DNA of 34,151 bases from positions 1 to 34,151 of the forward strand of contig CALHPU010000130.1 of assembly GCA_938036435.1 (NCBI GenBank), written 5' to 3'. The position numbers and the translations under genes were made by a program. Below are positions 7,972 to 33,180 of the stretch, piece by piece. The notes under the pieces are model-generated. The model ran no database searches. It saw only the letters and a list, made by a program, of their open reading frames with translations, and was not told where the DNA came from. This stretch comes from an uncultured Pirellulaceae bacterium. GTDB taxonomy: Bacteria > Planctomycetota > Planctomycetia > Pirellulales > Pirellulaceae. Every line of letters starts with the position of its first letter. Position 1 is the first letter of the stretch.

Positions 7972-7987
7972 TGTTGAATCCAAAAAG

Positions 7988-11541: not shown

Positions 11542-11608
11542 TGCCAAAATGAGTTGGTTCAAAGTTCACGACGCTGCGGTGAGGTCTTGTCCGCTCTGGA
11601 GAGGCCGG

Positions 11609-13927: not shown

Positions 13928-14014
13928 CCTGAGAAAACTCCGCTTTTGATTGCGAGAAAGTGGTGCTGGACGGATAAACGACACGCAACGTACGTGATCG
14001 TCTAGTGATTTATT

Positions 14015-17187: not shown

Positions 17188-19122
17188 ATGATAAATCAAC
17201 AATCTACCCCCGCGAAGCGAAATGAAATTCGCCATCTTCTAGTAACTTTCCGCCTTCCGCTGTTACTGGTACTCCACACGGCAGTCTTCGCTGGAGTTTT
17301 CTGGCTCGCATTTTTAATGCGGTTCACCATGGATATCCCGGTGAAATACCAGAGCCTGTTTTGGCAGGGTGTGCCAGTTATTGTGGCTACGAAGGTGATT
17401 GTGTTCTATTTGATGCGTTCTTTCCACGGTTGGTGGAGATATGTTCATTTCTCCGACGTCATTTCACTAGCGAAGAGCTCTGCTGTCGCATCTTTGTCTG
17501 TCATTGCTATCGACTATTTTCTACTTGATGGAAAAATCCCTCGCACGGTGGTTCTGAATGACTTCGCAATAGGAATCATTATCTTGGGAGGGCTAAGGTC
17601 AAGTTGGCGAGTTTGGGACGAGCGAATTGTTCCAATGCGATCAAAAAGACAGGGCCAACGCTCGTTGATAGTCGGGGGCAATTTCGAATCTGCCCGTTTG
17701 GCGCACCTCATTAACGGGCAGCGTAACCTAGACACTCGAATCGTTGGTATGGTCACGCCAAAATCGCTGTTTAAGTCACAAAAATTCTATGGTGACATTC
17801 GGGTAGTAGGTGAGCTTCAACAGGTTGCTGAATTGATGACCAGCCATCGAGCCAAAGACCTATTTGTTGTCTCGGGTGCTTTGCCAGCGAAGAAATTGCG
17901 TTCGCTACTGGATCTTGCCTCAAACAATAATTTCGAGATCAAAATCCTTCCAAGACTGGAAGAGCAGTTGAAGGGGATGGACAAGGTTCCGATTCGCGAA
18001 GTGTCATACAACGACCTGCTTCGTAGGAAACCCGCAGAGACTGACTTAGGTGCAATTGAAGGAATTGTTTCCGGCAAATCTGTCATGGTCACAGGAGCTG
18101 GAGGATCGATTGGTTCTGAATTATGCCGCCAATTAATTAGATTTAATCTGAGTGAGCTTATCCTTCTTGGCCGAGGAGAAAACCGGATCTATGAGATCGA
18201 ACGCGAATTAAGAGGTTTGGGGCAAGGTGTTGATTTGGTTCCAAAGATTGTCAACATCACCGACAAAGCTAGGATGAAAGAAGTGTTTGAGCAGCACCGT
18301 CCTAGGGTCATTTTTCATGCTGCTGCGCACAAGCATGTGCCGTTGGTAGAACAGAACGTTGGCGAAAGCATTATCAATAACGTCGTAGGAACTAAAAACG
18401 TTGCGGATCTAGCACACCACTATCAGGTAGAACGATTTGTGATGGTGTCAACGGACAAGGCCGTGAACCCCACGAGCGTGATGGGCTGCACGAAGCATAT
18501 GGCCGAGCGGTATTGTCAGACACTCGGGGGGCAATCCAAAACTAAATTCATCTCAACTCGTTTTGGCAACGTACTTGGATCTGCCGGTAGCGTGGTGCCT
18601 TTGTTTCAAAAACAGATTCAGGCAGGCGGACCAATAACGATCACCGACCGACGCATGACTCGTTACTTTATGACGATCCCTGAAGCTTCCCAGTTAGTGG
18701 TGCAAGCCGCGACAATGGGTGACGGTGGGGAGATCTTTGTCTTAGACATGGGAGAACCAGTTAAAATCCTTGACTTAGCTCGTGACTTGGTCCGGTTGGC
18801 AGGTCACCCTCCGGATTCAATTGATATTGTGGAATCTGGGATACGTCCTGGGGAGAAACTGTTTGAGGAACTCTACTATAAGAACGAGACTTCAATACCA
18901 ACCTCTCATGAGAAAATTCTTTCGTCCTTAAGCAGGCAGTATTCACTGACAGAAGTTGATCAACAAATCGCTGCACTTATTGAGGTTGCTTACTCTTCTC
19001 CTGAGGAAGTGAAAAAATCTTTGAAAAACTTTATCCCGGAATTCGACTATTCCTCAAAACGAAAACCGCTCCAAGTTTTCTCTGCTCCACTGCCGTCCGC
19101 GAACATAAGAGAAGCAATTTAG
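17188..19122 (+). CDS. FlaA1/CapD/PglF-type membrane UDP-GlcNAc 4,6-dehydratase
   Basis: The 644-residue protein follows the PglF/WbpM plan: about four N-terminal TM helices (about 20-150), a CoA-binding-like Rossmann domain (about 150-285), and an extended SDR dehydratase domain (about 290-600). The NAD site is GAGGSIGSE (near 303). The catalytic region has Thr422-Asp423-Lys424 (VSTDKAVNP), then MGCTK with Met432 and Lys436 replacing the usual YxxxK; PglF-type enzymes use this Thr-Asp-Lys arrangement. The product is expected to be UDP-2-acetamido-2,6-dideoxy-4-hexulose (a 4-keto sugar) made at the inner face of the membrane. The DegT aminotransferase further along is a plausible next enzyme. 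It is the first gene of the plus-strand EPS series. Confidence 0.88.
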   Translation: MINQQSTPAKRNEIRHLLVTFRLPLLLVLHTAVFAGVFWLAFLMRFTMDIPVKYQSLFWQGVPVIVATKVIVFYLMRSFHGWWRYVHFSDVISLAKSSAVASLSVIAIDYFLLDGKIPRTVVLNDFAIGIIILGGLRSSWRVWDERIVPMRSKRQGQRSLIVGGNFESARLAHLINGQRNLDTRIVGMVTPKSLFKSQKFYGDIRVVGELQQVAELMTSHRAKDLFVVSGALPAKKLRSLLDLASNNNFEIKILPRLEEQLKGMDKVPIREVSYNDLLRRKPAETDLGAIEGIVSGKSVMVTGAGGSIGSELCRQLIRFNLSELILLGRGENRIYEIERELRGLGQGVDLVPKIVNITDKARMKEVFEQHRPRVIFHAAAHKHVPLVEQNVGESIINNVVGTKNVADLAHHYQVERFVMVSTDKAVNPTSVMGCTKHMAERYCQTLGGQSKTKFISTRFGNVLGSAGSVVPLFQKQIQAGGPITITDRRMTRYFMTIPEASQLVVQAATMGDGGEIFVLDMGEPVKILDLARDLVRLAGHPPDSIDIVESGIRPGEKLFEELYYKNETSIPTSHEKILSSLSRQYSLTEVDQQIAALIEVAYSSPEEVKKSLKNFIPEFDYSSKRKPLQVFSAPLPSANIREAI

Positions 19123-19373
19123 ACAGCAAATCCTCTTTTCTCAGTACTCGCACAACGGTTGTCTCACAGTCAAGATGTTTACTGTTACCGATGGTCGTTT
19201 TTATCTCTGAGAGTCATTAGAATCTCCTTAATAGACTTTAGAGCGAATGAGTCGATTTTTGTCTCTTTTGCAAAGCAAAACAGCCGGATCGCAATTGTAA
19301 CGTCCGATCCAGAATCTTGAAAAAACAAATTCCACCGATGCAAAATCGGCACAATTGAGTAAGTATAGCAACC
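19123..19373. other. 251-bp gap within the EPS series with small hairpins
   Basis: No gene is seen between the dehydratase and the first sulfotransferase. It contains a perfect hairpin TTTTGC-aaa-GCAAAA at 19266-19280 and a weaker GGATCG/CGATCC pair nearby. The size suggests an internal promoter for the sulfotransferase-polymerase-flippase genes, but no clear promoter boxes were found. Confidence 0.35.
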
Positions 19374-20279
19374 ATGAAAGAGTCAATCTTTAATATTGAA
19401 GATCGTGTTCAGTGGAAAGGGCAAACTCATTCGCGAAGGCGGAAGTATCGCCGGCTAATTAGTGTTTCCCACTATATGACTCTATGGTTGGGCAAGCGTT
19501 TCCCCAATGCCGTTCCGTTGGTCTATGTCGTTGGCTATCCCAAAAGTGGCACGACTTGGGCAGCTCAATTGGTTGCCGATTACTTACGTCTTCCGCACCC
19601 GCAGCACACCATTTTTCCCCTCGGGTGTCCAGCTGTCATTCAAGGGCATGATTACATTTCCCCCAATTATCCTATTGGGGTATACGTTGTAAGAGACGGC
19701 CGAGACGTGATGATGTCTGGCTTCCATCATTTAAAAAGTCAATTCCTAGAAGGGGGCGGTAGAAAGGGGCACAGGCGTTTTTTTGAATCAATAGATCTTG
19801 AAAAACCGGTCTCGGAACTGCTACCTAGCTTTATCGAGTATTCGGTCACCCAACCGTTTGCAGGTTCTCGTAACTGGCACCAGCATGTACAGTCGTATTT
19901 TGAGTCAAAGGCTCCAAATGTACATCTCGTCCGATACGAAGACCTAATTGACCAACCCGAACAAGCGCTAAGCTCGTTAATGGACGGGTTGACAGGAAGC
20001 GACGTCGATGATCGGAAGATTAAAGAAGCAGTGGATCGCTTCTCGTTTACCCGTCAAACCAGTAGTAAAAAAAAGCCAAGCGGCGCATCTTACCTTCGAA
20101 AAGGCAAGAAAGGTGATTGGCGATCTCATTTCAATCGGGAATCCGCAGAGCTGTTCGAGCAACACTTTGGAGAGTCACTGAGAAGTGCAAATTATGAAAC
20201 TGATGGCTCATGGGTCGATCGGCTCTCTACACCGACGCCAGTCAACGAGGCCGAAGCTTCCAACCAAACCTCCTCATAA
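19374..20279 (+). CDS. PAPS-dependent sulfotransferase (type 1-like, PF00685)
   Basis: Predicted to move a sulfonate group from PAPS to a hydroxyl or amine of the polysaccharide in the cytoplasm. The 301 residues show all PAPS hallmarks: the 5'-phosphosulfate loop GYPKSGTTW (54-62, with K57), the 3'-phosphate site VVRDGRDVMMSG with Arg107 and Ser115 at the canonical spacing of eight, and near the C-terminus RKGKKGDW (242-249), the cofactor-binding motif familiar from eukaryotic cytosolic sulfotransferases. There is no signal peptide. It sits between the dehydratase and the polymerase, 21 bp before the latter, so a glycan acceptor is likely. The sugar and position modified cannot be read from the sequence. 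Confidence 0.92.
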   Translation: MKESIFNIEDRVQWKGQTHSRRRKYRRLISVSHYMTLWLGKRFPNAVPLVYVVGYPKSGTTWAAQLVADYLRLPHPQHTIFPLGCPAVIQGHDYISPNYPIGVYVVRDGRDVMMSGFHHLKSQFLEGGGRKGHRRFFESIDLEKPVSELLPSFIEYSVTQPFAGSRNWHQHVQSYFESKAPNVHLVRYEDLIDQPEQALSSLMDGLTGSDVDDRKIKEAVDRFSFTRQTSSKKKPSGASYLRKGKKGDWRSHFNRESAELFEQHFGESLRSANYETDGSWVDRLSTPTPVNEAEASNQTSS

Positions 20280-20300
20280 CGAACGCTTTCTGGTCGACAG

Positions 20301-21737
20301 ATGTTTAAACAAACAGAAATTTCGAGTCTCGTGCGACTAACGGTGCTATTGGTTGGCATAGTGGCCGCGGTCTTTTCCGTTTGGGCTTGTGTCGACACAC
20401 AAATGCTGTTTGCCGCTTTTGGCGCAATCGCGCTCTTTTTCGTTACTTGTCCATTTCTCCAGATTAAGAAATACGATCTTTTCAGCCCATGGTCGTTTGT
20501 CATCTTGGCAATTGGAGTGCTCTGTACGCCCCAAGCCATCTGCATGTCGTTTATGTGGCCTGAGGCCGAGCCGATTGAGCGAATGATGCTTTTAGGTAAA
20601 GAGCCAGAATACTTTCTTTATCCAGCAGGAGTATTTTTGTTGGGGCTTGTTTGCTTGACATATGGCTACTTTGGTCTGACAAACAGAAAGCCCAAACATC
20701 TTGTCGTTCAACGGCGTTACAACGAGAGAAATCTCTGGATTGTTCTGAGCGCCACAATTGCCGTTTCATTACTCTCTACGTTATTCTTTGTCCGCTACAC
20801 TGGCGGGTTCGAGTCAGGTCGTATTTCCGACAAACGGACAAACCTCAAGACGATTGACGTTCAGGCCGGCGACACTCAGCAGCACGGGCACTTAAGGCAG
20901 GTATCGAAACTTGGATCAGTAGCTTTCTTGATCTTGTACAGCTACTTTCTAGTGAAGTACAAACGCCTGACAATGGCTCAGATTGCCTTTCTTGGTTTCG
21001 TGTTTGTCATAGCCGTCGCAGTGCCTTTCTACTCGAGTTCACGATCGCAGGTCTGTTGGATAGTTCTAAATACATTGGGGGTAAATTATTATCTCGGTCG
21101 TGGCAATTTTATTGCGAAAGTTGCGGTGGTAGGTGCAATCGGCCTAGTACTCTTTACTGCAATGTCCGGGCTACGAAATACGGACACCTCGGCGGCAATC
21201 GAAGATACATCGTCGCTTGAGATTTTTGAGAAACTTATTCTGAATCGCAATGGGCCAGGCCTTTCCAAAACAGCCCATATAATCAACCACGTTCCCGATC
21301 CATTGCAATTTCAGTATGGCTCGACATTTGCCGAATGGCTGATTGCACCAGTTCCACGCGCGATCTATCCCACAAAACCGATGATCGGAAGAGGAGTGAC
21401 TATTGGCAGAACGATTTACGGGATGAAACTCTCTGGAGTGCCTCCGGGATATATCGCCGAACTCTACTGGAACTTTTACATCCCGGGCATCATTTTTGGG
21501 ATGTTTTCGTTAGGCGTCCTGCTCGAGAGGCTTCATTCCATATTCAGAAATGCAACCATTCTCCCTGAGATTGCGGTCCCAATTTATTTATTCGCCGTCA
21601 TGCCAATTGCTTTCTCAGTGCTAGGGAATTCTCTAGGCTACGGCACCATGATGCGACTTGTTGATTTCTTTACAATCACCGGCATTATCTTTCTAGCATC
21701 GACGCGGACACAGGCCTTTGAGCAAAGTTCGCCTTAA
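20301..21737 (+). CDS. wzy: Wzy-like oligosaccharide repeat-unit polymerase
   Basis: This 478-residue protein is hydrophobic throughout with about a dozen predicted membrane segments, beginning with LTVLLVGIVAAVFSVWACV. A large periplasmic loop in the second half contains PVPRAIYPTKPMIGRG, then GVPPGYIAELYWNFYIPGIIFGMF, a pattern known from Wzy/EpsG-type repeat-unit polymerases. It should link lipid-carried repeat units at the periplasmic face of the inner membrane. Wzy proteins are poorly conserved, so the call rests on topology, this loop and context: the Wzx flippase starts 6 bp after its stop. A second polymerase/ligase-like gene lies on the minus strand at 14015. Confidence 0.8.
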   Translation: MFKQTEISSLVRLTVLLVGIVAAVFSVWACVDTQMLFAAFGAIALFFVTCPFLQIKKYDLFSPWSFVILAIGVLCTPQAICMSFMWPEAEPIERMMLLGKEPEYFLYPAGVFLLGLVCLTYGYFGLTNRKPKHLVVQRRYNERNLWIVLSATIAVSLLSTLFFVRYTGGFESGRISDKRTNLKTIDVQAGDTQQHGHLRQVSKLGSVAFLILYSYFLVKYKRLTMAQIAFLGFVFVIAVAVPFYSSSRSQVCWIVLNTLGVNYYLGRGNFIAKVAVVGAIGLVLFTAMSGLRNTDTSAAIEDTSSLEIFEKLILNRNGPGLSKTAHIINHVPDPLQFQYGSTFAEWLIAPVPRAIYPTKPMIGRGVTIGRTIYGMKLSGVPPGYIAELYWNFYIPGIIFGMFSLGVLLERLHSIFRNATILPEIAVPIYLFAVMPIAFSVLGNSLGYGTMMRLVDFFTITGIIFLASTRTQAFEQSSP

Positions 21738-21742
21738 TCACA

Positions 21743-23083
21743 ATGAGAGAAAGATTTAGAAAATTTTCCCAAAGTCGCTTAACGCAAGTGATAATCATCA
21801 AGAGCTTCGCTGCATTGCTTTTGTTGTCATCTCAAGTACTACCCGCTCGAGTTCTGGGCGTAGATGGTTTTGGAACGTTTTCGTATCTTAATTCGGTGCT
21901 CGCGGTGCTTACCTTTCTGGCGATCTGGGGGACTGATCGCCTGTGTCTAAGAGAAGTTTCGCTATTTCGAAAACCTACGCAAAAGAAGTCGAACCGAAGT
22001 CATGCTTCATCTGCCACTTCGAATCTAGATCCTAACGTTAGCGAGTTTGGCCAGCGGCTTTTTGGAGTCTACGCGATTCTTCTCTTCAACACGATCTTTG
22101 TCGGTGTTGGTTTGTGGGTCTACATGGGTAGTCAATTTGCCAACGAGCGTTCGCCCGCTCTTCTAGCGGTGTGTTTAGGGCTAGTTTTAACGCGTGCATT
22201 TAGCCAAGTCAACTATTCCGTTACGCAAGGACTCAGCCGCGTAGTTTTTGCAGAGGTTTGTTTCTCTTTGGGTCGTCCTCTTTTGGTTGTTCTTCCACTG
22301 TTAGTTTTCTATCTCTGCGATTTCAAAGCGAGCGTCCAAGAGGTGTTATTGCTGTTTCTCATATCTTACCTCGTCGTTGGATTGTTACTGCATTGGCGCG
22401 CTTCGCATCAGAGCTTTTTAAAGCTAGACTTCGACCTGTCTGAAATTCCTACGGTCTACAAACTATCTTTCATGTTTTTTGTAGTGGGTATCGGCGTACC
22501 GCTTCTACAAAACATCAACACAATCGAGTTGGGGATATTTGAATCTCGAACTGAGGTCGCGCTGTACTCCGCATGTGCTCGGCTGGTCAGTTTAGTTCTG
22601 ATGGGACTCGTATCCGCAAACTTGCTAATTGCACCGAAACTACCACCTTTGTTTCAAGCTGGTGACATAGCGGGTATGAGATTGATCATCCGCAACAACA
22701 ACAAGATTGTTCTACTTTTGACTTTGGTGCCCGTGATTGGACTTGCCATCCTCGCGGAGAAAGTTCTCTTTTTCTACGGCGAAGAGTTCGTTCCTGCCGC
22801 ATTGATCTTGCGAACTTTGGTAATTGGTCAAGTTTTCAGTGTATTCTGTGGTCCCGTCGTATTGATCTCAACACTAACGGGACTACAACAAAATACTGCT
22901 GCGACCGTGCTGGCAGCTTGCATATTCAATGCGCTCCTGTGTCTGATACTGATCCCTCGATTCGGGGCATTAGGTGCCGCTTATGCAAGCGTTTTTTCAG
23001 CCATATTTCTCAACGGTTTTTTGGCTTGGACAATCAAACGCAAACACGGCCTAAACGTCACAATGCTGAACATCATCAGGTAG
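21743..23083 (+). CDS. wzx: Wzx-type polysaccharide flippase (MOP superfamily)
   Basis: The 446-residue protein has some 12 hydrophobic helices spread over its length and the N-terminal LPARVLGVDGFGTFSYL pattern typical of the oligosaccharide flippase branch of the MOP/MATE superfamily. The second half has AEKVLFFYGEEFVPAALILR and ends with a paired-helix region, RFGALGAAYASVFSAIF, also typical. It should flip the undecaprenyl-linked repeat unit across the inner membrane. A polar insert at about 75-95, rich in Ser, Lys and Asn, forms the first cytoplasmic loop. It is tightly packed after the polymerase and 18 bp before the second sulfotransferase, so these genes are very likely co-transcribed. 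Confidence 0.88.
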   Translation: MRERFRKFSQSRLTQVIIIKSFAALLLLSSQVLPARVLGVDGFGTFSYLNSVLAVLTFLAIWGTDRLCLREVSLFRKPTQKKSNRSHASSATSNLDPNVSEFGQRLFGVYAILLFNTIFVGVGLWVYMGSQFANERSPALLAVCLGLVLTRAFSQVNYSVTQGLSRVVFAEVCFSLGRPLLVVLPLLVFYLCDFKASVQEVLLLFLISYLVVGLLLHWRASHQSFLKLDFDLSEIPTVYKLSFMFFVVGIGVPLLQNINTIELGIFESRTEVALYSACARLVSLVLMGLVSANLLIAPKLPPLFQAGDIAGMRLIIRNNNKIVLLLTLVPVIGLAILAEKVLFFYGEEFVPAALILRTLVIGQVFSVFCGPVVLISTLTGLQQNTAATVLAACIFNALLCLILIPRFGALGAAYASVFSAIFLNGFLAWTIKRKHGLNVTMLNIIR

Positions 23084-23101
23084 AAATATCGTTAGGCACG
23101 T

Positions 23102-24100
23102 ATGTCACATCAATTACAACTAACCGCACAGAAGCTTTTTTTCATCGTCGGGTGTGGGCGATCGGGCACAACGCTCTTGCGCTCAATGCTCGACTCTCAC
23201 CCCAGTATTAAGATACCGCGAGAAACTTTCTTCTTCAACAACATCGCGAAGTTTGAATTTGACGTTTCAGCCAACGAACAAGTAGAGAAGATCGTCGGGA
23301 AACGTCGATTGGAGCTTATTGCCAGTAGATGGTGGATTCGTGAGATGGGTATCAGTGAAGACGACTTAGAGCAATCGTTAGGGGAAGCTCCAGCGACTTG
23401 GCCAAACCTATTCCTGGCACTGATACTTAGCAATGTCGATATCGAAGCAAACCAGCGTGTTGGGGAAAAAACGGTAGGCCATCTTGGTTGCTGCGAACAG
23501 CTTTTGACTGCTTATCCAAACGCCGATGTACTACAAATCATTCGCGATCCACGGGGTGCCTTCGCGTCTTTCCGCAAGGCCAAGGTCGGACTGAATCATG
23601 TCGCACCACTAGTTCGAGATTGGCAAAAAGCAGCCGAAATCGACTTGCGACTGACGAATCACCCACGATACTTTCGACTCCGCTTTGAAGACCTAATTCA
23701 AACGCCCGAAGATCAACTGAAGAAGATCTGTGAACATCTTGGCGTTGATTTTTCCCCCACGATGTTAGAGTTTCATAATCGAAAGAATGCCGGTTTCTCC
23801 GACTTTCAAAACCACCACCAAAACACGATGAAACCCATATTTACAACCTCGTTGAAGGACTGGCAGCAGTCACTCTCTCGCTCTCAAATCGCGCTAATTG
23901 AACACTGTTTGAGCTCGCATATGAAACGAATTGGATATAGCCCAACCGGTGCACGCGTTTCGGGAAACCGGATTCGATTAGCGATCTCCAGCTTCGCCGA
24001 TAGTTTTAGCAAATGCTTTATAAGGCGTCCGCATGCGATAATAACTAAAATTCGTGCCAACTACCGTTCGAGTAAATCGTTAAAATGCCACAAGACGTAA
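23102..24100 (+). CDS. Sulfotransferase (PF13469-like)
   Basis: A second PAPS-dependent sulfotransferase, 332 residues. The 5'-phosphosulfate loop is VGCGRSGTTLL (16-26) almost at the N-terminus, followed by MLDSHPSIKIPRET, the sequence usual for the sulfotransfer_3 group. The 3'-phosphate site is IIRDPRGAFASF with Arg148 and Ser156 spaced by eight. It lacks the RKGxxGDW motif of the first sulfotransferase and differs from it along its length, so the two are not recent duplicates. A basic C-terminal extension of about 50 residues follows the catalytic domain. No export signal is seen, so it should act before flipping, either on the lipid-linked glycan or on a nucleotide sugar. Confidence 0.9.
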   Translation: MSHQLQLTAQKLFFIVGCGRSGTTLLRSMLDSHPSIKIPRETFFFNNIAKFEFDVSANEQVEKIVGKRRLELIASRWWIREMGISEDDLEQSLGEAPATWPNLFLALILSNVDIEANQRVGEKTVGHLGCCEQLLTAYPNADVLQIIRDPRGAFASFRKAKVGLNHVAPLVRDWQKAAEIDLRLTNHPRYFRLRFEDLIQTPEDQLKKICEHLGVDFSPTMLEFHNRKNAGFSDFQNHHQNTMKPIFTTSLKDWQQSLSRSQIALIEHCLSSHMKRIGYSPTGARVSGNRIRLAISSFADSFSKCFIRRPHAIITKIRANYRSSKSLKCHKT

Positions 24101-24233
24101 CCCGCTTACCCTCTGCAGGCGGTCTAGTTGCGCTGCCGTAATCCTCGTCAGCCTAGTTAGACTAAAACACCAATGAGAAGATTCGTAGTATCGAAAGTCG
24201 AGTGCAGACTTTCCATTTTCGATTACCTCCAAC

Positions 24234-24238
24234 AAGGG
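24234..24238 (+). promoter_or_regulatory. Ribosome binding site that decides the GT4 start
   Basis: AAGGG lies 11 nt before the ATG at 24250. It supports that start over the in-frame GTG at 24202, which would add 16 residues before the first strand of the GT-B fold. Confidence 0.5.
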
Positions 24239-24249
24239 TGGATGAATTG

Positions 24250-25398: not shown

Positions 25399-25464
25399 AA
25401 AACGAACCAATTAACTTACTGATTCGATTGCTCGCGAGAATTGGCTCTTTGGCAATCAGAAAGC

Positions 25465-26628
25465 ATGACAACACACGCCATGAACGAAGTAAAAAACACG
25501 ACACCAGAAAGAATTTTCTTATCTCCGCCGCACATGGCAGGAACAGAGTTAGAGTACGTCAAGCAAGCTTTTGAGTCGAACTACATTGCGCCCGTGGGCC
25601 CTCAGCTAAATCAGTTCGAACAGCTGTTTAAGGAAATCACAGGATTCGAACACTGTGTCGCTGTCGTCAATGGCACTTCTGCAATTCATCTGACGCTACG
25701 TGCATTGGGAGTTGGACCCGGTGACACCGTCCTTGGCTCAACCCTCACTTTTGTAGGTAGTGTCGCTGCTGTTAAATACCAAAATGCTGACTTGGTGTTT
25801 CTCGATAGCGATCTTGAGACCTGGAATATGGACCCCAATCTCCTCGAACAAGAAATCAAATCTCTTGCGAGTCAGGGAAAGAAGCCCGCTGCGGTAATTC
25901 CAACCGAATTGTACGGTCAGCCGTGCGATTTAGATCGAATTGTTGAAATCTGCAAACCGTTTGAAATCCCGGTTGTCTGCGATAGTGCCGAATCGCTTGG
26001 CGCATCGTACAAGGGACGCTCAGTCGGAAGATCTGCTCGAGCAGCAACCTTCTCGTTTAACGGAAATAAGATCTTGACGACATCGGGGGGCGGGATGATC
26101 GCCAGTGATGATCTCGAGCTCGTAAAACAGTGTCAATACTTCGCAACTCAAGCTCGTCAGCCAGTGTTGCACTACGATCATCACGAGGTTGGCTACAACT
26201 ATAGAATGAGCAACATCCTTGCAGCAATCGGAATTGGACAGCTGGAGGTGCTCTCAGAACGTGTCGACCGTCGACGCGCGATCAGCACGCTGTACGGGGA
26301 GCTGTTACAACCGATTGACGAGATCAAGATGATGCCCGAAGCTCACTACGGACAGTCAAACAAATGGCTTACCGTTATTACCATTGACCAACATTCGTCG
26401 GTTCGTCCTACTGATGTCATTTCAGCGTTACAAGAGGAAAACATTGAATCTCGTCCTGTATGGAACCCGCTTCACACGCATAAGGCATTTGCGGATTGCC
26501 GCTGCGTAGGTGGTGAAGTCGCTGAATCTCTGTTTGAGTCGGGTGTCTGCCTGCCCAGCGGATCTTCGATGACAGACGACGATGTGCATCGAGTAGCCCA
26601 AGTCATCAACACAGTGTTTAGAAAGTAG
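25465..26628 (+). CDS. DegT/DnrJ/EryC1/StrS sugar aminotransferase (EpsN/PglE-like)
   Basis: A PLP enzyme that puts an amino group on a nucleotide-linked keto sugar. From the ATG at 25465 (387 residues) it opens with IFLSPPHMAGTELEYVKQAF and NYIAPVGPQLNQFE, which closely follows EpsN/PglE-type C4 aminotransferases. The PLP lysine is K202 in SFNGNKILTTSGGG, with VCDSAESLGA and the NGTSAIHL loop before it. The natural substrate would be the 4-keto sugar from the dehydratase at 17188, giving a UDP-4-amino-4,6-dideoxy sugar. A PglD-like acetyltransferase to finish a bacillosamine-type product is not in the window. An upstream TTG at 25441 is in frame but lies before the conserved start. The third sulfotransferase starts 12 bp downstream. 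Confidence 0.88.
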   Translation: MTTHAMNEVKNTTPERIFLSPPHMAGTELEYVKQAFESNYIAPVGPQLNQFEQLFKEITGFEHCVAVVNGTSAIHLTLRALGVGPGDTVLGSTLTFVGSVAAVKYQNADLVFLDSDLETWNMDPNLLEQEIKSLASQGKKPAAVIPTELYGQPCDLDRIVEICKPFEIPVVCDSAESLGASYKGRSVGRSARAATFSFNGNKILTTSGGGMIASDDLELVKQCQYFATQARQPVLHYDHHEVGYNYRMSNILAAIGIGQLEVLSERVDRRRAISTLYGELLQPIDEIKMMPEAHYGQSNKWLTVITIDQHSSVRPTDVISALQEENIESRPVWNPLHTHKAFADCRCVGGEVAESLFESGVCLPSGSSMTDDDVHRVAQVINTVFRK

Positions 26629-26639
26629 AACCTGTATCT

Positions 26640-27542
26640 ATGGCCGTTGCCTCCACACCCTCCAAAGCTGCCTGCGACAACGCGTCTTCCAGCCCTGCCA
26701 TTATTATTGGTGCTGGTAGAAGCGGAACGAACATGCTGCGCGATCTATTGGTATCCCTGCCCTACTTTAGCACATGGCCTTGTGACGAAATCAACTACAT
26801 TTGGCGCTACGGCAACCGAAGTTTTGAGACCGATGAATTTACGCGCCAAATGGCCAACCATCGATCGGTCAAGTATATCCGTGACCAATTTGAATCTCAG
26901 CGAAAGAAGGAACCCGACAAAACTTTGGTTGAGAAAACATGTGCCAACTCGTTGCGTTGCGGATTTCTACACGAAATTTTCCCTAATGCAAGATTCGTTC
27001 ACATCATTCGCGACGGGCGCGATGTCGCCGCCTCAGCAGCACTAAGATGGAATGCAAGTTTGGACATTGGGTATCTCTTAAAGAAGGCTAGGTTTGTTCC
27101 TAAATCAGACTTGCTTTATTACGCTTCGAGCTATTTAAAAGCTCGCATCCACAAATTGACCTCCGGTAAATCACGCTTGTCAACTTGGGGGCCAAAATTT
27201 GAAGGCATGCAAGAAGTGTTTGCAAACCACAGCCTACCTATAGCGTGCGCCATCCAATGGCAACGCTGTGTTGATGCTGCTCAAGAACAACTTAGCGATG
27301 TGCCGAGCCATCAAGTCCTGACGATCCGCTACGAAGCGTTTACGCAAAATCCTGCAATTGAATTTGAAAAGGTCTGTCAATTTCTCGGAAGTCAGCCAAC
27401 TAAAGAGACAGTTGAAGAAGTGGTTAAGTCCGTTTCCAGCCGAAGCGTTGGAAAATGGAAGAAGCAATTAAGTGCTGAAGAGATCGAGGAAATAGAGCGA
27501 TTGGTCGGGGATCAACTAAAGCGTCTGGGATATGGGGATTAG
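26640..27542 (+). CDS. Sulfotransferase (PF13469-like), third of the cluster
   Basis: A 300-residue sulfotransferase with the loop IIGAGRSGTNMLRDLL (22-37) for the 5'-phosphosulfate and HIIRDGRDVAASA with Arg124 and Ser132 for the 3'-phosphate. After the loop comes LPYFSTWPCDEINYIW, unlike the equivalent part of the other two enzymes, which suggests a different acceptor. Its C-terminus has the family's closing SVGKWKKQLSAEEIEEIERLVG. There is no signal peptide or membrane helix. The gene is tightly packed between the aminotransferase (12 bp) and the initiating transferase (2 bp), so it is firmly part of the EPS operon. Confidence 0.9.
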   Translation: MAVASTPSKAACDNASSSPAIIIGAGRSGTNMLRDLLVSLPYFSTWPCDEINYIWRYGNRSFETDEFTRQMANHRSVKYIRDQFESQRKKEPDKTLVEKTCANSLRCGFLHEIFPNARFVHIIRDGRDVAASAALRWNASLDIGYLLKKARFVPKSDLLYYASSYLKARIHKLTSGKSRLSTWGPKFEGMQEVFANHSLPIACAIQWQRCVDAAQEQLSDVPSHQVLTIRYEAFTQNPAIEFEKVCQFLGSQPTKETVEEVVKSVSSRSVGKWKKQLSAEEIEEIERLVGDQLKRLGYGD

Positions 27543-27544
27543 TT

Positions 27545-28147
27545 TTGCTAACGACGCGGCAAAGAATACTCAAACGGCTTTTCGACATCGGTGTTTCCTT
27601 TTTGGGATTATCGCTGACGTGGCCCATCATTTTAGTTGGCTGGCTAGCCGCGTCGATCAGCACACGCGCCAACGGCCTGTTTGTGCAAAAACGGGTGGGG
27701 CAACATGGAAAGTTATTCAATGTTTACAAATTGCGTTCCATGCGAGACATTGCAGGGGTTACTACTACGGTGACCTCTGATAACGACATGCGGGTAACAT
27801 GCGTCGGTCGAGTTTTAAGAAAGTTGAAGATTGACGAACTGCCACAACTTTTCAACGTCCTAATTGGACAGATGAGCCTTGTAGGTCCGCGGCCTGACGT
27901 GCCGGGATACGCCGACAAACTTAAGGGCGACGACCAAATTGTCCTGTCAGTAAAACCCGGTGTGACGGGGCCCGCGACCATCGCGTTTCGACACGAGGAG
28001 GAAATCCTTGCCGGGGTCGACGATCCAGAGACTTACAACATTGAAGTCATTTGGCCAGAGAAAGTCAGACTCAATCGCGAGTACGTGCAAAACTACACGT
28101 TCGGTAAAGACCTAAAATACCTTTTTCAAACCGTTTTGAGTATCTGA
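27545..28147 (+). CDS. PglC-like initiating phosphoglycosyl transferase
   Basis: This 200-residue protein is a compact monotopic bacterial sugar transferase (PF02397). It begins KRLFDIGVSFLGLSLTWPII, the re-entrant membrane helix, followed by the amphipathic GLFVQKRVGQHGKLFNVYKLRSM. The acid pair Asp97-Glu98 in KIDELPQLFNV corresponds to the catalytic dyad, and MSLVGPRPDVP is the conserved loop. It should transfer a sugar phosphate from UDP-sugar to undecaprenyl phosphate and so start the repeat unit. The short form matches PglC/WcaJ-core enzymes acting on bacillosamine-like or GlcNAc-type donors. The start is a TTG two bases after the sulfotransferase stop, consistent with translational coupling. 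The following GT4 begins one base after its stop. Confidence 0.88.
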   Translation: MLTTRQRILKRLFDIGVSFLGLSLTWPIILVGWLAASISTRANGLFVQKRVGQHGKLFNVYKLRSMRDIAGVTTTVTSDNDMRVTCVGRVLRKLKIDELPQLFNVLIGQMSLVGPRPDVPGYADKLKGDDQIVLSVKPGVTGPATIAFRHEEEILAGVDDPETYNIEVIWPEKVRLNREYVQNYTFGKDLKYLFQTVLSI

Positions 28148-28148
28148 C

Positions 28149-29375
28149 GTGAAATTGCTGCTCGTTCATCGCTATATCAAGCCTGACACGCCAGGCTACG
28201 CTCACATGCTGTACATCATCGGCAAACATCTTGCCGATGAAGGCCATGACGTCACCATTTTTTCGTCTCAGCCCGGATACAACGATGCCTATGACGGCCC
28301 TAAACTTCCCCGTCGTGAGAACGTCGATGGAATGACCGTCATCCGCACGGCGCTACTCAAGGAAAAGAAAAACAACGCGATTGTCCGCTCAATCAATTTT
28401 TTGATTTTTGGAATCAGCCTGTTTTTTCATGCGGTCGTTCGTAAAATCCCATACGACACCATGACGGTTACGACGTTCCCTCCCGGAATAATGGCAACAG
28501 TGGCACGTGCGATCGGCCTATTCCGCAAAACGAATTACATCTATCACTGCATGGACTTGTATCCAGAGCTCGCCTCGGCAAGCGGCATCCTCAAACGAAA
28601 ATGGCTTGCCAAGTTTTCCTTGATGCTGGACAAACGAAATTGCCGTAAAGCAAAAGCCGTAGTCGTCTTATCCGAGGACATGAAAAAGACGCTTTCCGAT
28701 CGGGCGCTTGACACATCCAATGTTCACATCATCAACAACTTTATCATCGACAGCTTTGACGGAGACGTCGAAGCTTGTGGATTGCCCGAGACGATAAGAA
28801 ATCGCGACAAAAAATTCCGGGTCCTCTTTGCGGGCAACATTGGACGTTTTCAGAGTCTCGATACTGTCGTTGCCGCAGCCCTAGAGCTCGCGCAGAACGG
28901 CGACAGCGAAATGAAACGGAACATAGAATTTTGGTTTGTCGGATCAGGAATTATGGTCGATCAATTGCGGCAGCAAGCCGGTGACGAGCTGAACAAGAGT
29001 ATTTTCTTTCACCCCTATCTGCCAATCGACCAAGTCATGGGAGTCATTGCGGAATCAAACCTTGGAATTGTCTCCCTGTTAAAAGGAGTTATTCAAAGCG
29101 CCTATCCGAGTAAGACGATGACCTACCTTGAGGCTGGTTGCCGGTTGTTGACGCTGGTCGAAGCTGAATCAGAGCTTGCAAGGCTTGTTGAAAAAGAAAA
29201 CATCGGGGCTGTCTGCGATGAAATATCAGCCGAAAAACTAGCCCAGATAATCACCAAAGAATACCGACTGCGTGAAACCCAAGGGGATAATCGCGACAGG
29301 ATTCGAAAGGCTGGCCGACGTAATTTTGGACAACCAACCATACTTCAAAAGTGGACGAAACTGTTGGCTTCTTGA
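28149..29375 (+). CDS. WbuB-like family 4 glycosyltransferase, candidate FucNAc transferase
   Basis: The 408-residue protein starts with GTG one base after the initiating transferase stop. The acceptor domain opens MKLLLVHRYIKPDTPGYAHML and has GHDVTIFSSQPGYN and YIYHCMDLYPELASASG, a pattern I know from WbuB-type transferases. The donor domain has RVLFAGNIGRFQSLD and YPSKTMTYLEAGCR. WbuB of E. coli transfers N-acetyl-L-fucosamine, and the three genes making UDP-L-FucNAc lie just downstream, so this enzyme is the best candidate to use that donor, perhaps as the second sugar of the repeat unit. The donor assignment is inferred from context. No membrane anchor is obvious apart from a hydrophobic stretch around 80-100. 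Confidence 0.85.
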   Translation: MKLLLVHRYIKPDTPGYAHMLYIIGKHLADEGHDVTIFSSQPGYNDAYDGPKLPRRENVDGMTVIRTALLKEKKNNAIVRSINFLIFGISLFFHAVVRKIPYDTMTVTTFPPGIMATVARAIGLFRKTNYIYHCMDLYPELASASGILKRKWLAKFSLMLDKRNCRKAKAVVVLSEDMKKTLSDRALDTSNVHIINNFIIDSFDGDVEACGLPETIRNRDKKFRVLFAGNIGRFQSLDTVVAAALELAQNGDSEMKRNIEFWFVGSGIMVDQLRQQAGDELNKSIFFHPYLPIDQVMGVIAESNLGIVSLLKGVIQSAYPSKTMTYLEAGCRLLTLVEAESELARLVEKENIGAVCDEISAEKLAQIITKEYRLRETQGDNRDRIRKAGRRNFGQPTILQKWTKLLAS

Positions 29376-29723: not shown

Positions 29724-30773
29724 ATGGCCACCACTTCCAATCCGAAAAGTAAAACAGTCCTTATCACCGGAGGTACGGGTTCCTTTGGCAAGACCATGGT
29801 CAAGCACTTACTGGACCAGGGCTATGGCCAGATCCGCATCTTCAGTCGCGACGAATGGAAGCAAGAGGACATGCGGGTACGAATGGCAGAACCTCGGTTG
29901 AAGTTTTACATTGGTGACGTTCGTAGTCGCGCCAGTGTCGATGCTGCAATGGACGGCGTTGATCTTGTTTTTCATGCAGCGGCACTGAAACAAGTTCCAT
30001 CCTGCGAATTTTTTCCGATGCAGGCCGTTGAAACAAACATCATTGGTAGCAACAACGTTATTGAATCAGCCGTCGCTCATGGAGTTGACTGTGTAGTAGT
30101 GCTGGGCACCGACAAGGCGGTTTATCCTGTTAACGCGATGGGGATGACTAAAGCAGTCATGGAAAAAGTCGCGCAATCAATCGCGCGTCGAATGGGCGAT
30201 GGGCACACACGCATCTGTTCGGTGCGATACGGAAACGTAATGTATTCACGCGGAAGTGTGATCCCGTTGTTTGTAAGGCAAATCCGTGAAGGCAAGCCGA
30301 TCACCACGACGGAAAATAGTATGTCTCGTTTCATGCTGCCGTTGCGCGACAGCGTCGCGTTGGTGGAATTCGCTTTTCAGAACGCGCGTCAAGGCGACAT
30401 CTTCATCAAAAAAGCAGCCGCTTGTACGATCGGGCAATTGGCTCAGGCGATGAAAGAACTGTTCAAATCTGACTCTGAAATTAAGATGATTGGAATTCGT
30501 CACGGTGAGAAAATGTTCGAAGCTTTGGCGTCCGTAGCTGAAATGGCTCGCGCTGAAGACATGGGCGACTTCATGAGAATTCCGATGGACGAACGTGAAT
30601 TGAACTACAAGCGTTTCTTCACTGAAGGCGATTCTGATGAGACCAAGTTCGAAGATTACGACTCCCACAACACGGATCAGTTGACCCTACAAGAGGTGAA
30701 GGACCTGTTGCTCTCACTACCAGAGATTCAGCAGGACCTCATTGATGCGGGGCTGTCCACCGACGGCTCGTAG
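29724..30773 (+). CDS. capE: UDP-GlcNAc 4,6-dehydratase / 5-epimerase (CapE/FnlA/WbjB)
   Basis: First step of UDP-L-FucNAc synthesis: converts UDP-GlcNAc to a UDP-4-keto-6-deoxy-L-arabino sugar. The 349-residue soluble SDR has the NAD site ITGGTGSFGKTM near the N-terminus, FHAAALKQVPSCE, and the active-site region with Thr129-Asp130-Lys131 (LGTDKAVYPVNAMG) and Met139/Lys143 in MGMTK in place of YxxxK, as in CapE. RYGNVMYSRGSVIPLF and IRHGEKMFEAL are further family signatures. Unlike the membrane-bound dehydratase at 17188 it has no TM region, so the two act in different branches. The assignment is reinforced by capF and capG directly following in the standard order. Confidence 0.92.
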   Translation: MATTSNPKSKTVLITGGTGSFGKTMVKHLLDQGYGQIRIFSRDEWKQEDMRVRMAEPRLKFYIGDVRSRASVDAAMDGVDLVFHAAALKQVPSCEFFPMQAVETNIIGSNNVIESAVAHGVDCVVVLGTDKAVYPVNAMGMTKAVMEKVAQSIARRMGDGHTRICSVRYGNVMYSRGSVIPLFVRQIREGKPITTTENSMSRFMLPLRDSVALVEFAFQNARQGDIFIKKAAACTIGQLAQAMKELFKSDSEIKMIGIRHGEKMFEALASVAEMARAEDMGDFMRIPMDERELNYKRFFTEGDSDETKFEDYDSHNTDQLTLQEVKDLLLSLPEIQQDLIDAGLSTDGS

Positions 30774-30779
30774 AGATCA

Positions 30780-30816
30780 CTGACCAGTCCAATGCGATCG
30801 TGGCGACGTTGGTCAG
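30780..30816. repeat. Hairpin between capE and capF
   Basis: A perfect 7-bp inverted pair (CTGACCA/TGGTCAG) with a 23-base loop starts 7 bp after the capE stop. There is no T-run behind it, so it is not a typical terminator; it might stabilise or process the transcript. Confidence 0.35.
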
Positions 30817-30885
30817 CGAATACGACACCTCAGCTCTTTATTCGAATGTTTTCGCGTTCGTTCTACCCTATACGCTTGCTCCATC

Positions 30886-32037
30886 ATGAACACAACGGAA
30901 AACGCACCAAAGAAAACGATTCTCGTCACCGGTAGCGGTGGTATGATTGGTTGGCATCTGTCCGTCTTTCTCGATGCCCGTTCCGATAGCGTTAACTTAA
31001 TACGTTGTGATCGAGCAGGGTTTAACGACGACGCCTTTCTGGCTGATGCCGTTTCGAAATCAGACGTCATCGTTCACCTCGCGGGCATGAACCGCGGCGA
31101 CGAAGAAGAAATCGTGGCGGCAAACATTGGAATGGCCGATCGATTGATTGACTTTTGCCTAAAGTCTGATTCCAAACCACAAGTCATCTATAGCTCATCG
31201 ACCCACGCTGAGGGCCCTACGCGGTACGGTTATTCCAAACGAACCGCGGGCGAACATTTTGAGGCATGGGCAGCAGATACAGGAGCCAATTTCTGCAATC
31301 TGGTTCTCCCACACGTCTTCGGCGAACATGGCAAGCCATTTTATAACTCGGTCGTATCGACGTTTGCTTCCCAAATCGTCAATGGCGAGTCGCCGACAGT
31401 CACGGGCGATGGCGATCTAAACCTACTGCACAGCCATGAAGTCTCGAAGATCATTTGGAAGAAGATTGAAACTGGCTTCAAGGGTACTTGTCGCCCTGAG
31501 GGCCAGCCGATCAAGGTCAGCCAACTCTTGGAAAGACTCCAAGCCCTGTGGTCGCGCTACCAAGGTGGTGTTATGCCCAATTTCGACGATCTCTTCGACG
31601 TCCGATTGTTCAATGTCATGCGATCCTATCAAGACCATGAGCAACGGCAAATCGACCTGACGCTGCACGAGGACGATCGTGGTGATCTATTCGAGGCCGT
31701 TCGTGCTGACGGCGGCGGCCAAGTATTTGTCTCCACAACCAAACCCAATATCACGCGTGGAAATCACTTTCATTTTAAGAAGGTTGAGCGATTTTTGGTC
31801 TTCTCGGGCAAAGCAAAAATTCGCTTACGGAAAGTGCTTACTGATGAGATTTTCACTTACGAGGTCAGTGGCGATCAACTTCAGGCGGTCGACATTCCAA
31901 TTCTCCATACACATAACATCACCAACGTTGGTGACGAACCGTTGCTGACATTATTCTGGACCAACGAGCATTACGATCCTGCGGATTCAGATACTTTTTT
32001 CCTTCCTGTCGAACAGATCGAACCCAAACAAGCGTAG
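30886..32037 (+). CDS. capF: Bifunctional UDP-sugar reductase / cupin epimerase (CapF/FnlB/WbjC)
   Basis: The 383-residue enzyme carries out the second stage of UDP-L-FucNAc synthesis: C3-epimerisation by a C-terminal cupin, then 4-keto reduction by an N-terminal SDR domain. The SDR part shows the nucleotide site VTGSGGMIGWHLS, HLAGMNRGDEEE, and the YGYSK catalytic motif (YxxxK) after YSSSTHAEGPTR. The cupin (about 260-383) has the metal-binding cluster NHFHFKKVE (His294, His296, Glu301) and HTHNITNVG (His341, His343). Length and domain order match CapF. It is 112 bp after capE and 6 bp before capG, completing the module. Confidence 0.93.
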   Translation: MNTTENAPKKTILVTGSGGMIGWHLSVFLDARSDSVNLIRCDRAGFNDDAFLADAVSKSDVIVHLAGMNRGDEEEIVAANIGMADRLIDFCLKSDSKPQVIYSSSTHAEGPTRYGYSKRTAGEHFEAWAADTGANFCNLVLPHVFGEHGKPFYNSVVSTFASQIVNGESPTVTGDGDLNLLHSHEVSKIIWKKIETGFKGTCRPEGQPIKVSQLLERLQALWSRYQGGVMPNFDDLFDVRLFNVMRSYQDHEQRQIDLTLHEDDRGDLFEAVRADGGGQVFVSTTKPNITRGNHFHFKKVERFLVFSGKAKIRLRKVLTDEIFTYEVSGDQLQAVDIPILHTHNITNVGDEPLLTLFWTNEHYDPADSDTFFLPVEQIEPKQA

Positions 32038-32043
32038 ACGAAC

Positions 32044-33180
32044 ATGAGCGATAAACTAAAAGTCCTTACGATTCTTGGCACACGTCCGGAGATCATTCGT
32101 CTTTCCCGCACCATGGCGGCGCTGGATAAGTACACCGACCACCAGATTGCACACACAGGTCAAAATTACGATTACGAGCTGAATCAGATTTTCTTTGACG
32201 ATCTGGAGATTCGAAAACCTGACCATTTCATGGGCGTTGATACTTCTTCGCTCGGGAACGTACTCGGTGGAACGCTGATCGAGAGCGAAAAAATTCTTCG
32301 TGCCGAAAAACCAGATGCGGTTGTCATTCTGGGAGACACCAACAGCGCTTTGGCCGGAATTATGGCACGGCGATTGAAGATTCCGCTGTACCATATGGAG
32401 GCAGGTAATCGTTGTTTCGACCTCAACGTTCCTGAAGAGACGAATCGTAGAATCATCGACCACATCAGCGATTTCAATCTGGTCTACACCGAACACGCAC
32501 GACGCCACTTGCTTAGCGAGGGCATCTCGCATCGGCGTATCTACGTGACCGGTTCGCCAATGTGCGAGGTTTTGGACCATTACAAGGACAAAATCAATTC
32601 CTCCAAGGCGCTCGACGAACTCGGACTGACGAAACAAAAATACATGCTCGTTAGCATGCACCGTGAGGAGAACGTGGACTATGAACAGCCGTTGACCAAT
32701 CTAGTGACGGCATTGCAGAATCTGGCTGCAAAATACGACATGCCAGTCATCGTCTCGACTCATCCGCGCACCCAGAAGCGTCTGGACATGTTTGGATTGA
32801 AACTAGAAGACGAACGTGTCAAGTTTCTTAAGCCGTTTGGTTTTTGCGACTACAATCGACTTCAAAAAGACGCGTTCTGCGTCATTTCCGATAGCGGAAC
32901 GATCAGTGAAGAATCCTCAATGCTCAGTTTCCCAGCGGTCACCATCCGAAACGCCCTCGAACGTCCCGAAGCCATGGACACAGGAAGCATCACGATCACC
33001 GGAACGGATCCGCATCGAATTGCAGATTGCGTTGCCGCGGTGACTGACCAATTCTTCTCTGGCAACCACGCGCCTGTGCCGGTTGACTATCAGGTCACTA
33101 ACACTTCGCAACGCGTTCTGCAACTCATTCTCGGCACCGCCAAACTGGCTCATCGCTGGCAAGGTATCGAGACCGTTTAA
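32044..33180 (+). CDS. capG: Non-hydrolysing UDP-N-acetylglucosamine 2-epimerase family enzyme (CapG/FnlC/WbjD)
   Basis: Last step of the module: 2-epimerisation giving UDP-N-acetyl-L-fucosamine. The 378-residue GT-B-like enzyme has the family signature LTILGTRPEIIRL at the start, DTNSALAGIMARR, HMEAGNRCFDLNVPEETNRRI (the NRCFD form is characteristic of CapG-type epimerases and differs from WecB), SMHREENVDY, STHPRTQKRL and DSGTISEE. It is soluble and of normal length. Placement 6 bp after capF and the motif set favour CapG over WecB. It is the last gene of the plus-strand EPS series and converges with a small membrane protein gene 14 bp away. Confidence 0.92.
   Translation: MSDKLKVLTILGTRPEIIRLSRTMAALDKYTDHQIAHTGQNYDYELNQIFFDDLEIRKPDHFMGVDTSSLGNVLGGTLIESEKILRAEKPDAVVILGDTNSALAGIMARRLKIPLYHMEAGNRCFDLNVPEETNRRIIDHISDFNLVYTEHARRHLLSEGISHRRIYVTGSPMCEVLDHYKDKINSSKALDELGLTKQKYMLVSMHREENVDYEQPLTNLVTALQNLAAKYDMPVIVSTHPRTQKRLDMFGLKLEDERVKFLKPFGFCDYNRLQKDAFCVISDSGTISEESSMLSFPAVTIRNALERPEAMDTGSITITGTDPHRIADCVAAVTDQFFSGNHAPVPVDYQVTNTSQRVLQLILGTAKLAHRWQGIETV

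Follow-up and report, generated by a model that had tools for sequence, protein, structure and literature searches.

The window, by which we mean the whole 34,151-nucleotide stretch of DNA analysed here from an uncultured Pirellulaceae bacterium, probably carries a Wzx/Wzy-dependent cluster for a sulfated surface polysaccharide, in which one of three sulfotransferases (ST3) would modify the initial sugar or disaccharide and the other two (ST1 and ST2) residues added later. The three genes, ST1 (19374..20279, 301 aa), ST2 (23102..24100, 332 aa) and ST3 (26640..27542, 300 aa), lie among polysaccharide genes in one co-directional run on the + strand. ST1 is of the PF00685 type (81.4 bits, cut-off 22), and ST2 (109.5 bits) and ST3 (89.5 bits) are of the PF13469 type (cut-off 27). 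The claim of the sequence-only reading that all three genes encode complete PAPS-binding motifs was borne out: the 5' phosphosulfate loops are GYPKSGTT in ST1, GCGRSGTT in ST2 and GAGRSGTN in ST3, and the Arg/Ser pair spaced by eight corresponds to R107/S115, R148/S156 and R124/S132, respectively. ST1 also shows the longer loop GYPKSGTTW, the motif RDGRDVMMS and a C-terminal RKGKKGDW. With Sulfotransfer_1 or Sulfotransfer_3 profiles above the curated cut-off and both motifs present, the three products are predicted PAPS-dependent sulfotransferases. They did not arise by recent duplication, since their pairwise identity is only about 22-24% in the main local matches. A single-sequence structure model of ST2 had a pLDDT of 35.7 and was set aside.

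All the genes named in the earlier reading were found in place on the + strand, with families assigned by profile search and the flippase below its cut-off in the window. Upstream of ST1 lies a membrane-bound nucleotide-sugar 4,6-dehydratase of the PglF/CapD type (17188..19122, 644 aa; PF02719, 383.5 bits, residues 299-578), whose CoA_binding_3 part is weak and below the cut-off. ST1 is followed by a Wzy-type repeat-unit polymerase (20301..21737; TIGR04370, 49.7 bits, cut-off 40) and a Wzx-type flippase (21743..23083; PF01943, 17.8 bits, cut-off 28.2), the orthologue of which in a congener (L082:2963-4276) exceeds the same cut-off with 31.1. Between ST2 and ST3 are the GT4 glycosyltransferase GT4a (24202..25398; PF00534, 97.7 bits) and a DegT-family sugar aminotransferase of the PglE/LegC kind (25441..26628; PF01041, 311.7 bits; TIGR04181, 367.9, below the cut-off of 420). 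ST3 is followed by a small, PglC-like initiating phosphoglycosyl transferase (27545..28147; PF02397 (Bac_transf), 174.5 bits), the WcaI/WbuB-like GT4 glycosyltransferase GT4b (28149..29375; PRK10307, 95.1 bits, below the cut-off of 276) and three fnl-like genes. The intergenic gaps measure 1-101 bases from ST1 to GT4b, and 348, 112 and 6 bases before fnlA, fnlB and fnlC. On the - strand are a Wzz/Wzc-type co-polymerase with a tyrosine autokinase (11609..13984; PF02706, 44.7 bits; TIGR01007, 165.0, cut-off 108) and a gene fusing a Wzy_C ligase/polymerase domain to TPR repeats (14015..16765; PF04932, 68.9 bits). Of the features of a Wzx/Wzy-type system, the initiating transferase (PF02397), Wzy (TIGR04370) and the co-polymerase (TIGR01007) are present, the latter two above cut-off. 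Promoter-like sites (22, against 18.2 in shuffled sequence, sd 3.8) and terminator-like sites (27 against 20.0, sd 4.7) were close to the shuffled counts, so no operon claim is built on them.

PAPS synthesis and OPX/Wza genes, which the earlier reading had suggested looking for elsewhere in the genome, are both encoded there. Contig C22 carries CysD (511.9 bits, cut-off 413) and a CysN-CysC fusion (914.7, cut-off 715), a separate APS kinase is found on contig C114, and six OPX (PF02563) matches are spread over five other contigs. The assembly has 176 contigs and is 89.75% complete, and within the window the G+C content, about 0.51-0.53 over bases 1-12000, drops to 0.46-0.48 over bases 12001-26000; both observations would fit a degenerate locus or a mis-binned contig, uninformative about the organism. 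We regard this as highly improbable, given that the frames are open, that such a drop in G+C is usual for polysaccharide loci, and that the congener G532 keeps Wzc, Wzy_C/TPR and dehydratase in the order of the window, with a Wzy_C product 62% identical and a close homologue of the 17188 dehydratase at the same place. The Wzy_C/TPR gene adjoins Wzc in congeners.

A similar run was observed in the congener G134, in the order dehydratase, ST, ST1, (deacetylase, methyltransferase), polymerase, flippase, ST2, GT4a and aminotransferase. The gene order that the earlier reading proposed to search for in other genomes is thus matched there as regards the ST1 and ST2 orthologues, which hold comparable places, but the third sulfotransferase is a different one. 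Among the 149 genomes of the family, relatives of ST1 occur in 8 (E<=1e-25, own genome included), of ST2 in 2 (E<=1e-40; the other being G134, 52% identity) and of ST3 in 4, own included, which marks the locus, as judged from ST3, as accessory. All 21 genomes covered from the genus contain PF13469 sulfotransferases, and a lone sulfotransferase gene therefore says little. This frequency, together with the many kinds of substrate that sulfotransferases in general accept, could suggest that the three enzymes act on lipids or small molecules unrelated to the polysaccharide, with their genes placed here only by coincidence. Such a coincidence is very unlikely, considering the three genes in one run between polysaccharide genes, the comparable places of the ST1 and ST2 orthologues in G134, and the tie of the ST3 clade to transferases across three phyla. 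The locus is best interpreted as one for a sulfated polysaccharide, because the three intact sulfotransferases are interleaved with the other genes, PAPS synthesis is encoded, and related sulfotransferases recur within polysaccharide loci of relatives.

ST3 belongs to a clade of 12 members (support 99/99), all 12 sharing the signature TWPCDEINYIWR, which are spread over Planctomycetota, Verrucomicrobiota and Bacillota. All 12 ST3-clade loci, the window counted, contain a transferase homologous to the small initiating one, versus none of the nine loci of sister sulfotransferases. In the transferase tree, 10 of the 12 transferases from ST3 loci form one clade (99/98) that includes none of nine other transferases; those of L037 and L039 lie outside it. 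The product of 27545 has PDB 8e37 and 8g1n as structural relatives over residues 7-150. The structure model of ST3 (pLDDT 80) matches PAPS sulfotransferases, best of all tyrosylprotein sulfotransferases (TM 0.57), and the stretch with the TWPCDEINYIWR signature is poorly modelled (pLDDT below 50 at residues 49-51). A predicted sulfotransferase family present in distant phyla beside the chain-initiating kind of transferase is new here. It is possible, though less likely than not, that ST3 is the founder of an undescribed sulfotransferase family that would be paired with one clade of PglC-like initiating transferases and would sulfate the Und-PP-linked first sugar or disaccharide before polymerisation, and that the two genes moved as a module among these three phyla. 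Viral contigs gave 12 pattern matches to ST3, none of them a relative. The comparison of ST3 with plasmids gave nine records, two of them covering at least 80% of ST3 and all below 32% identity; a Sinorhizobium stretch matched in this search has no annotated genes.

The earlier reading also placed L-FucNAc in the glycan. The three genes are an FnlA-like 4,6-dehydratase/epimerase (29724..30773, +), an FnlB/WbjC-like reductase (30886..32037, +; PF14667, 156.8 bits) and an FnlC/WecB-like 2-epimerase (32044..33180, +). The first two fall short of the curated family cut-offs (TIGR04130, 420.4 of 730; NF047837, 192 of 500), and the third exceeds that of the wecB model (TIGR00236, 264.3, cut-off 210). 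L-FucNAc is nonetheless likely, because the gene order, the PF08485 and PF14667 domains and the identity to E. coli FnlA (56%), WbjC (32%) and the E. coli 2-epimerase (49%) point to an FnlABC-like function. GT4b, which is 22% identical to the GT4 adjoining the fnl genes in an E. coli O26-type locus, is a candidate L-FucNAc transferase. It is possible, if on balance doubtful, that ST3 specifically sulfates the L-FucNAc added by GT4b instead of the first sugar. An fnlC homologue occurs in 10 of 12 ST3-clade loci versus 1 of 9 control loci (9 of 11 versus 1 of 9 when one threshold is used for both sets), and the order of fnl genes and then GT4 is also that of the E. coli O26-type locus. ST3 divergence correlates most with that of FnlA (r 0.92) and FnlC (0.87), followed by GT4b (0.74) and the transferase (0.64), values uncorrected for relatedness; this closer tracking of FnlA, FnlC and GT4b favours L-FucNAc as the acceptor. 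GT4b homologues occur in 5 of the 9 control loci too. A strict tie between ST3 and L-FucNAc is weakened by G228, an ST3 genome given as 91% complete, and by the ST3 genome to which L037 belongs: no fnlB match was found anywhere in either at E<=1e-15, yet ST3 directly adjoins a transferase in both.

Regarding the first sugar, the best solved relatives of the 25441 aminotransferase are 1o61 and 4ztc, which we take to be C. jejuni PglE, and its product is probably a 4-amino-4,6-dideoxy sugar; the pairing expected for a diNAcBac pathway, a PglE-like aminotransferase with a PglC-like transferase, is present. In the 89.75% complete genome, a search for a PglD-type acetyltransferase (TIGR03570) gave five matches, none above cut-off and none on the contig of the window, so the 4-amino group may stay free, and the repeat unit may then be zwitterionic, with amine plus sulfate. 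A constant pairing of the transferase with an aminotransferase is made less likely by the Halanaerobium kushneri locus L038, which has ST3 and the transferase but no aminotransferase homologue in 20.9 kb, so that chains may also start with a sugar that lacks the 4-amino group.

The families, motifs and gene order, the PAPS and OPX genes and the ST3-transferase association are read from sequence; from them we infer the sugars, the sulfation sites, the order of steps and EPS as the end product. In the explanation that we favour, the 17188 dehydratase and the 25441 aminotransferase would produce UDP-4-amino-4,6-dideoxy-HexNAc, and the PglC-like transferase would load a sugar, most likely this one, onto undecaprenyl phosphate. 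GT4b would add L-FucNAc made by FnlABC, and GT4a, perhaps with others, would extend the chain. All three sulfotransferases would work in the cytoplasm while the sugars are still lipid-linked, and would draw on PAPS from CysD/CysNC and the APS kinase. ST3 would modify the sugar, or the disaccharide, that is first assembled on undecaprenyl, and ST1 and ST2 the residues that follow. Wzx would then flip the unit, Wzy would polymerise it, and Wzc and an OPX encoded elsewhere would export the product. The earlier proposal of a sulfated EPS locus is partly supported: a sulfated polysaccharide is probable, with up to three predicted sulfations, and the product may be EPS, a capsule, an O-antigen or a protein-linked glycan. 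We consider it unlikely that the sulfated product is an O-antigen or is attached to protein instead of being free EPS or a capsule. In favour of that reading, the divergent 14015 gene carries a Wzy_C domain of the ligase type fused to TPR repeats, the NCBIfam model that it matches describes a putative O-glycosylation ligase (far below cut-off, 50 of 188), and in an E. coli O-antigen locus the fnl genes are likewise followed by a GT4. The Wzc-type autokinase beside the 14015 gene and the genomic OPX genes fit capsule or EPS export; neither is decisive.

The closest known system is synechan (xss) of Synechocystis sp. PCC 6803, described in the passages considered as a Wzx/Wzy-type cluster with sulfotransferases of distinct subfamilies among glycosyltransferases, OPX elsewhere, and Rha, Man, Gal and Glc as sugars; it has two sulfotransferases, in contrast to three in the window (PMC8205485). 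Against the pSYSM sulfotransferases, presumed by plasmid and annotation to be those of xss, ST2 showed 25% identity over 280 residues and ST3 32% over 133, and ST1 had no match at E<=1e-4; this similarity is distant, and no orthologues were found in xss. No fnl genes were seen there among the 24 features covered, nor XssQ/R/S regulators among 20 window proteins scanned. The wps-1 cluster of the actinomycete Actinoplanes missouriensis is likewise of the Wzx/Wzy type with different sulfotransferases (two) and sulfation predicted only, but its passages contain no L-FucNAc or PglC-like module (PMC13390465). Vibrio sp. KMM 8419 (PMC11641403) and Cobetia marina KMM 1449 (PMC11766843) also have gene clusters for sulfated polysaccharides, with solved structures; as far as their passages go, these capsule clusters differ in being of the ABC-transporter type, with PAPS genes inside and sulfated rhamnose. 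The Vibrio paper also predicts, in the part considered, a sulfated O-antigen from a sulfotransferase gene (PMC11641403). The PVC relative Pontiella sulfatireligans F21 is reported to have a sulfated, mainly N-sulfated exopolymer, and has a cluster in which a sulfotransferase lies together with GT2/GT4 genes and a transaminase for amino sugars; this cluster differs in having one sulfotransferase, and a term search of that paper found no FucNAc/aminotransferase wording (PMC7356697). In a sulfated-EPS study of Shark Bay mats, PF13469 genes were reported in some planctomycete MAGs, as presence/absence only, with most planctomycete orders there lacking them and no planctomycete locus in the passages (PMC9723792). 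For the initiation steps, the abstract on B. subtilis EpsL/EpsD describes a small transferase that loads diNAcBac and a GT4 that adds the second sugar, there GlcNAc, with no sulfation mentioned (PMC10653937).

Genetic descriptions in bacteria are thus few, as the sequence-only reading held, though not absent (synechan, wps-1 and the Vibrio, Cobetia and Pontiella clusters). Passages of papers from 2021 and 2026 confine bacterial sulfated polysaccharides to cyanobacteria (PMC8205485, PMC13390465), while those on Vibrio (PMC11641403), Cobetia (PMC11766843) and Pontiella (PMC7356697) report them there. The three-sulfotransferase planctomycete-like locus and a sulfotransferase family tied to initiation in three phyla make the cyanobacteria-only statement directly testable, and TWPCDEINYIWR offers a sequence signature by which to find producers. 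One paper, in the passages considered, treats PVC bacteria mainly as degraders of sulfated glycans (PMC7356697); if they make their own, their sulfatase-rich genomes would be read differently. Among the literature matches listed (titles and abstract starts, few subscription journals covered), none described the ST3-transferase pair or a bacterial cluster with FucNAc plus sulfotransferase. Three papers contain both words, FucNAc and sulfotransferase, in the text matched, one of them on giant viruses (PMC10117803).

The stretch from 17188 to 33180 comprises thirteen genes, all on the + strand, within one (C130) of the 176 contigs of a 4.57 Mb genome that is 89.75% complete. Nine matched stretches of PF07587 (PSD1), presumably a planctomycete marker, were found in this genome versus none in 14 control genomes, which is consistent with a planctomycete host. 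A Pfam/NCBIfam scan placed the three predicted sulfotransferases, ST1 (19374-20279), ST2 (23102-24100) and ST3 (26640-27542), each above its own Pfam cut-off, and each retains both PAPS motifs in intact form, as the sequence-only reading had proposed. Its placing of these enzymes among polysaccharide genes also held, since the other named functions were matched, with reservations for the flippase (21743), FnlA (29724) and FnlB (30886), which scored below strict cut-offs. We consider it likely, from the gene content, that this is a sulfated polysaccharide locus. The three sulfotransferases share about 22-24% pairwise identity in their main local matches; in a PDB sequence search, ST1 was nearest to cytosolic sulfotransferases, ST2 to tyrosylprotein sulfotransferases and ST3, weakly, to the latter too. 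The predicted ST3 model (mean pLDDT 80, poor around the signature stretch) matched the same fold with a TM of 0.57. Over bases 1-12000 the G+C content is about 0.51-0.53; with the polysaccharide genes, in bases 12001-26000, it drops to 0.46-0.48. Divergent from the locus, 14015-16765 joins a Wzy_C ligase domain to TPR repeats, and its product may ligate glycans to protein or lipid; EPS, capsule, O-antigen and glycoprotein are all possible end products.

Genes for two functions that the earlier reading had suggested looking for elsewhere in the genome were found there. For PAPS synthesis, CysD and a CysN-CysC fusion are adjacent on contig C22, above cut-offs, and a separate APS kinase lies on C114; a GH16-type glycoside hydrolase gene (L030:5028-5900) adjoins the CysD-CysNC genes. 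No OPX gene (PF02563) was found on the window contig, and six matches occur on five other contigs. For synechan, OPX is likewise encoded outside the cluster, and two sulfotransferase genes accompany about two sulfates per unit (PMC8205485). By analogy, three sulfations by ST1-ST3 are possible. The cluster type belongs with the known sulfated Wzx/Wzy kind, as a variant. The same genome holds a second polysaccharide locus on contig C95 (L027:4130-13911), with GT4, Wzy_C, OPX, a large initiating transferase and a sulfotransferase (PF13469, 50.3 bits) close together.

Regarding the sugars, the aminotransferase (25441) was nearest to 1o61/4ztc, which we take to be C. jejuni PglE, and scored below the LegC cut-off. 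Because no PglD/NeuD-type acetyltransferase exceeded the cut-off in the incomplete genome, diNAcBac is not supported, and the 4-amino group may be free or otherwise masked. The small initiating transferase (27545-28147) matched the PglC structures 8e37/8g1n, its top score being to the larger galactose phosphotransferase 8t53. FnlA, FnlB and FnlC (32044) share 56, 32 and 49% identity, respectively, with their counterparts in an E. coli locus whose annotation names an O26 flippase and polymerase.

Relatives of ST1 (E ≤ 1e-25), ST2 (E ≤ 1e-40) and ST3 (E ≤ 1e-30) occur in 8, 2 and 4 of 149 family genomes; two of the ST1 genomes are congeners, the ST3 count includes the window's own genome, and none of the five congeners listed carries an ST3 relative. 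PF13469 is matched in 21/21 genus genomes, with 2 to 16 stretches each. Given these few relatives, the locus is accessory, in a genus where sulfotransferases are usual. Each of the 21 genomes shows a PF13469 match in an open frame of 380-466 aa (here G000:C68:4556-5311, L025), so that one sulfotransferase looks core to the genus and separate from the window locus. The gene order, which the earlier reading had suggested searching for in relatives, recurs in part: congener G134 has dehydratase, sulfotransferase, ST1 orthologue, deacetylase, methyltransferase, Wzy, Wzx, ST2 orthologue, GT4a and aminotransferase, but its 3' part differs (a different GT4, a transferase, then genes of FnlA-like and RmlD-like type, a second aminotransferase and an FnlC-like gene) and no ST3 was found. 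The deacetylase, of the polysaccharide deacetylase type (PF01522, 65.4 bits), is L082:1-825. G532 shares Wzc (11609-13984 in the window), Wzy_C/TPR and the dehydratase (17188), followed by different genes, with no sulfotransferase found up to the contig end. Sulfotransferases are present in four of seven congener loci (G134, three; G144 and G067, two each; G540, one), which is no rate because G134 and G067 were located via theirs; one in G067 barely passes (27.5 versus 27). None was found in the loci of G532, G539, whose contig stops at Wzy_C, and G544.

ST3 profile matches (E ≤ 1e-30) were obtained in 17/392 phylum genomes. Besides the genome of the window, five scored 357-408 bits and the other eleven 147-228 bits. 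The tree included all five high scorers and nine of the eleven lower ones (leaving out G377 and G243), together with G115, G052 and four named genomes. It contained a 12-row ST3 clade (support 99/99) from Planctomycetota, Verrucomicrobiota and Bacillota, in which T45-R56 (TWPCDEINYIWR) is identical in 12/12 members. The row from G087, which is more distant, branches as sister to this clade (87/74), and the G087 locus too has fnlABC, transferase, aminotransferase and GT4b homologues.

Counting the window, an initiating transferase homologue lies near ST3 in 12/12 loci, the aminotransferase in 11/12 (absent from L038), GT4b (28149 in the window) in 11/12 (absent from L037) and fnlC in 10/12 (absent from L037 and L057), with unequal flanks (L022, L023 and L036 are 6-8 kb contigs). 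Identity is just 27-30% for the aminotransferases of L023 (cut by the contig end), L037 and L057, and 16-19% for GT4b in L038, L039 and L057. Nine sister-sulfotransferase loci yielded no transferase or aminotransferase (0/9 each), fnlC once (L068) and GT4b five times; GT4b is therefore not specific to ST3 loci. The ST3-transferase linkage gave a Fisher p of 6e-6 (11/11 versus 0/9), uncorrected for relatedness. Ten of the 12 transferases form one clade (99/98). Those of L037 and L039 lie outside it, as do all nine further transferases in the tree, which include a second L036 copy and that of G087; the transferase of the G134 locus is not a member of the clade. In the titles and abstract beginnings among the matches listed, no description of this pair was found.

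The gene associations suggest that ST3 would act on the first sugar or the first disaccharide. Presence and absence lean slightly to the first sugar; fnlB (E ≤ 1e-15) was absent from the G228 and L037 genomes, whereas the remaining six genomes searched had it. Against this acceptor, ST3 identities correlate more closely with those of FnlA (r 0.92, 7 loci), FnlC (0.87, 10) and GT4b (0.74, 11) than with those of the transferase (0.64, 12); the values for FnlB (0.56, 10) and the aminotransferase (0.51, 11) are lower still. These correlations would favour L-FucNAc as the acceptor, although shared descent can produce all of them. In L037, a locus without fnl genes, a formyltransferase and a PIG-L-type deacetylase (5822-7587) come after ST3 and the transferase and ahead of the aminotransferase, which suggests a formylated amino sugar in that case. 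The ST3 locus of G462 encodes a second, distant sulfotransferase (L061:13595-14482; PF00685, 44.6 bits) directly 3' of the aminotransferase.
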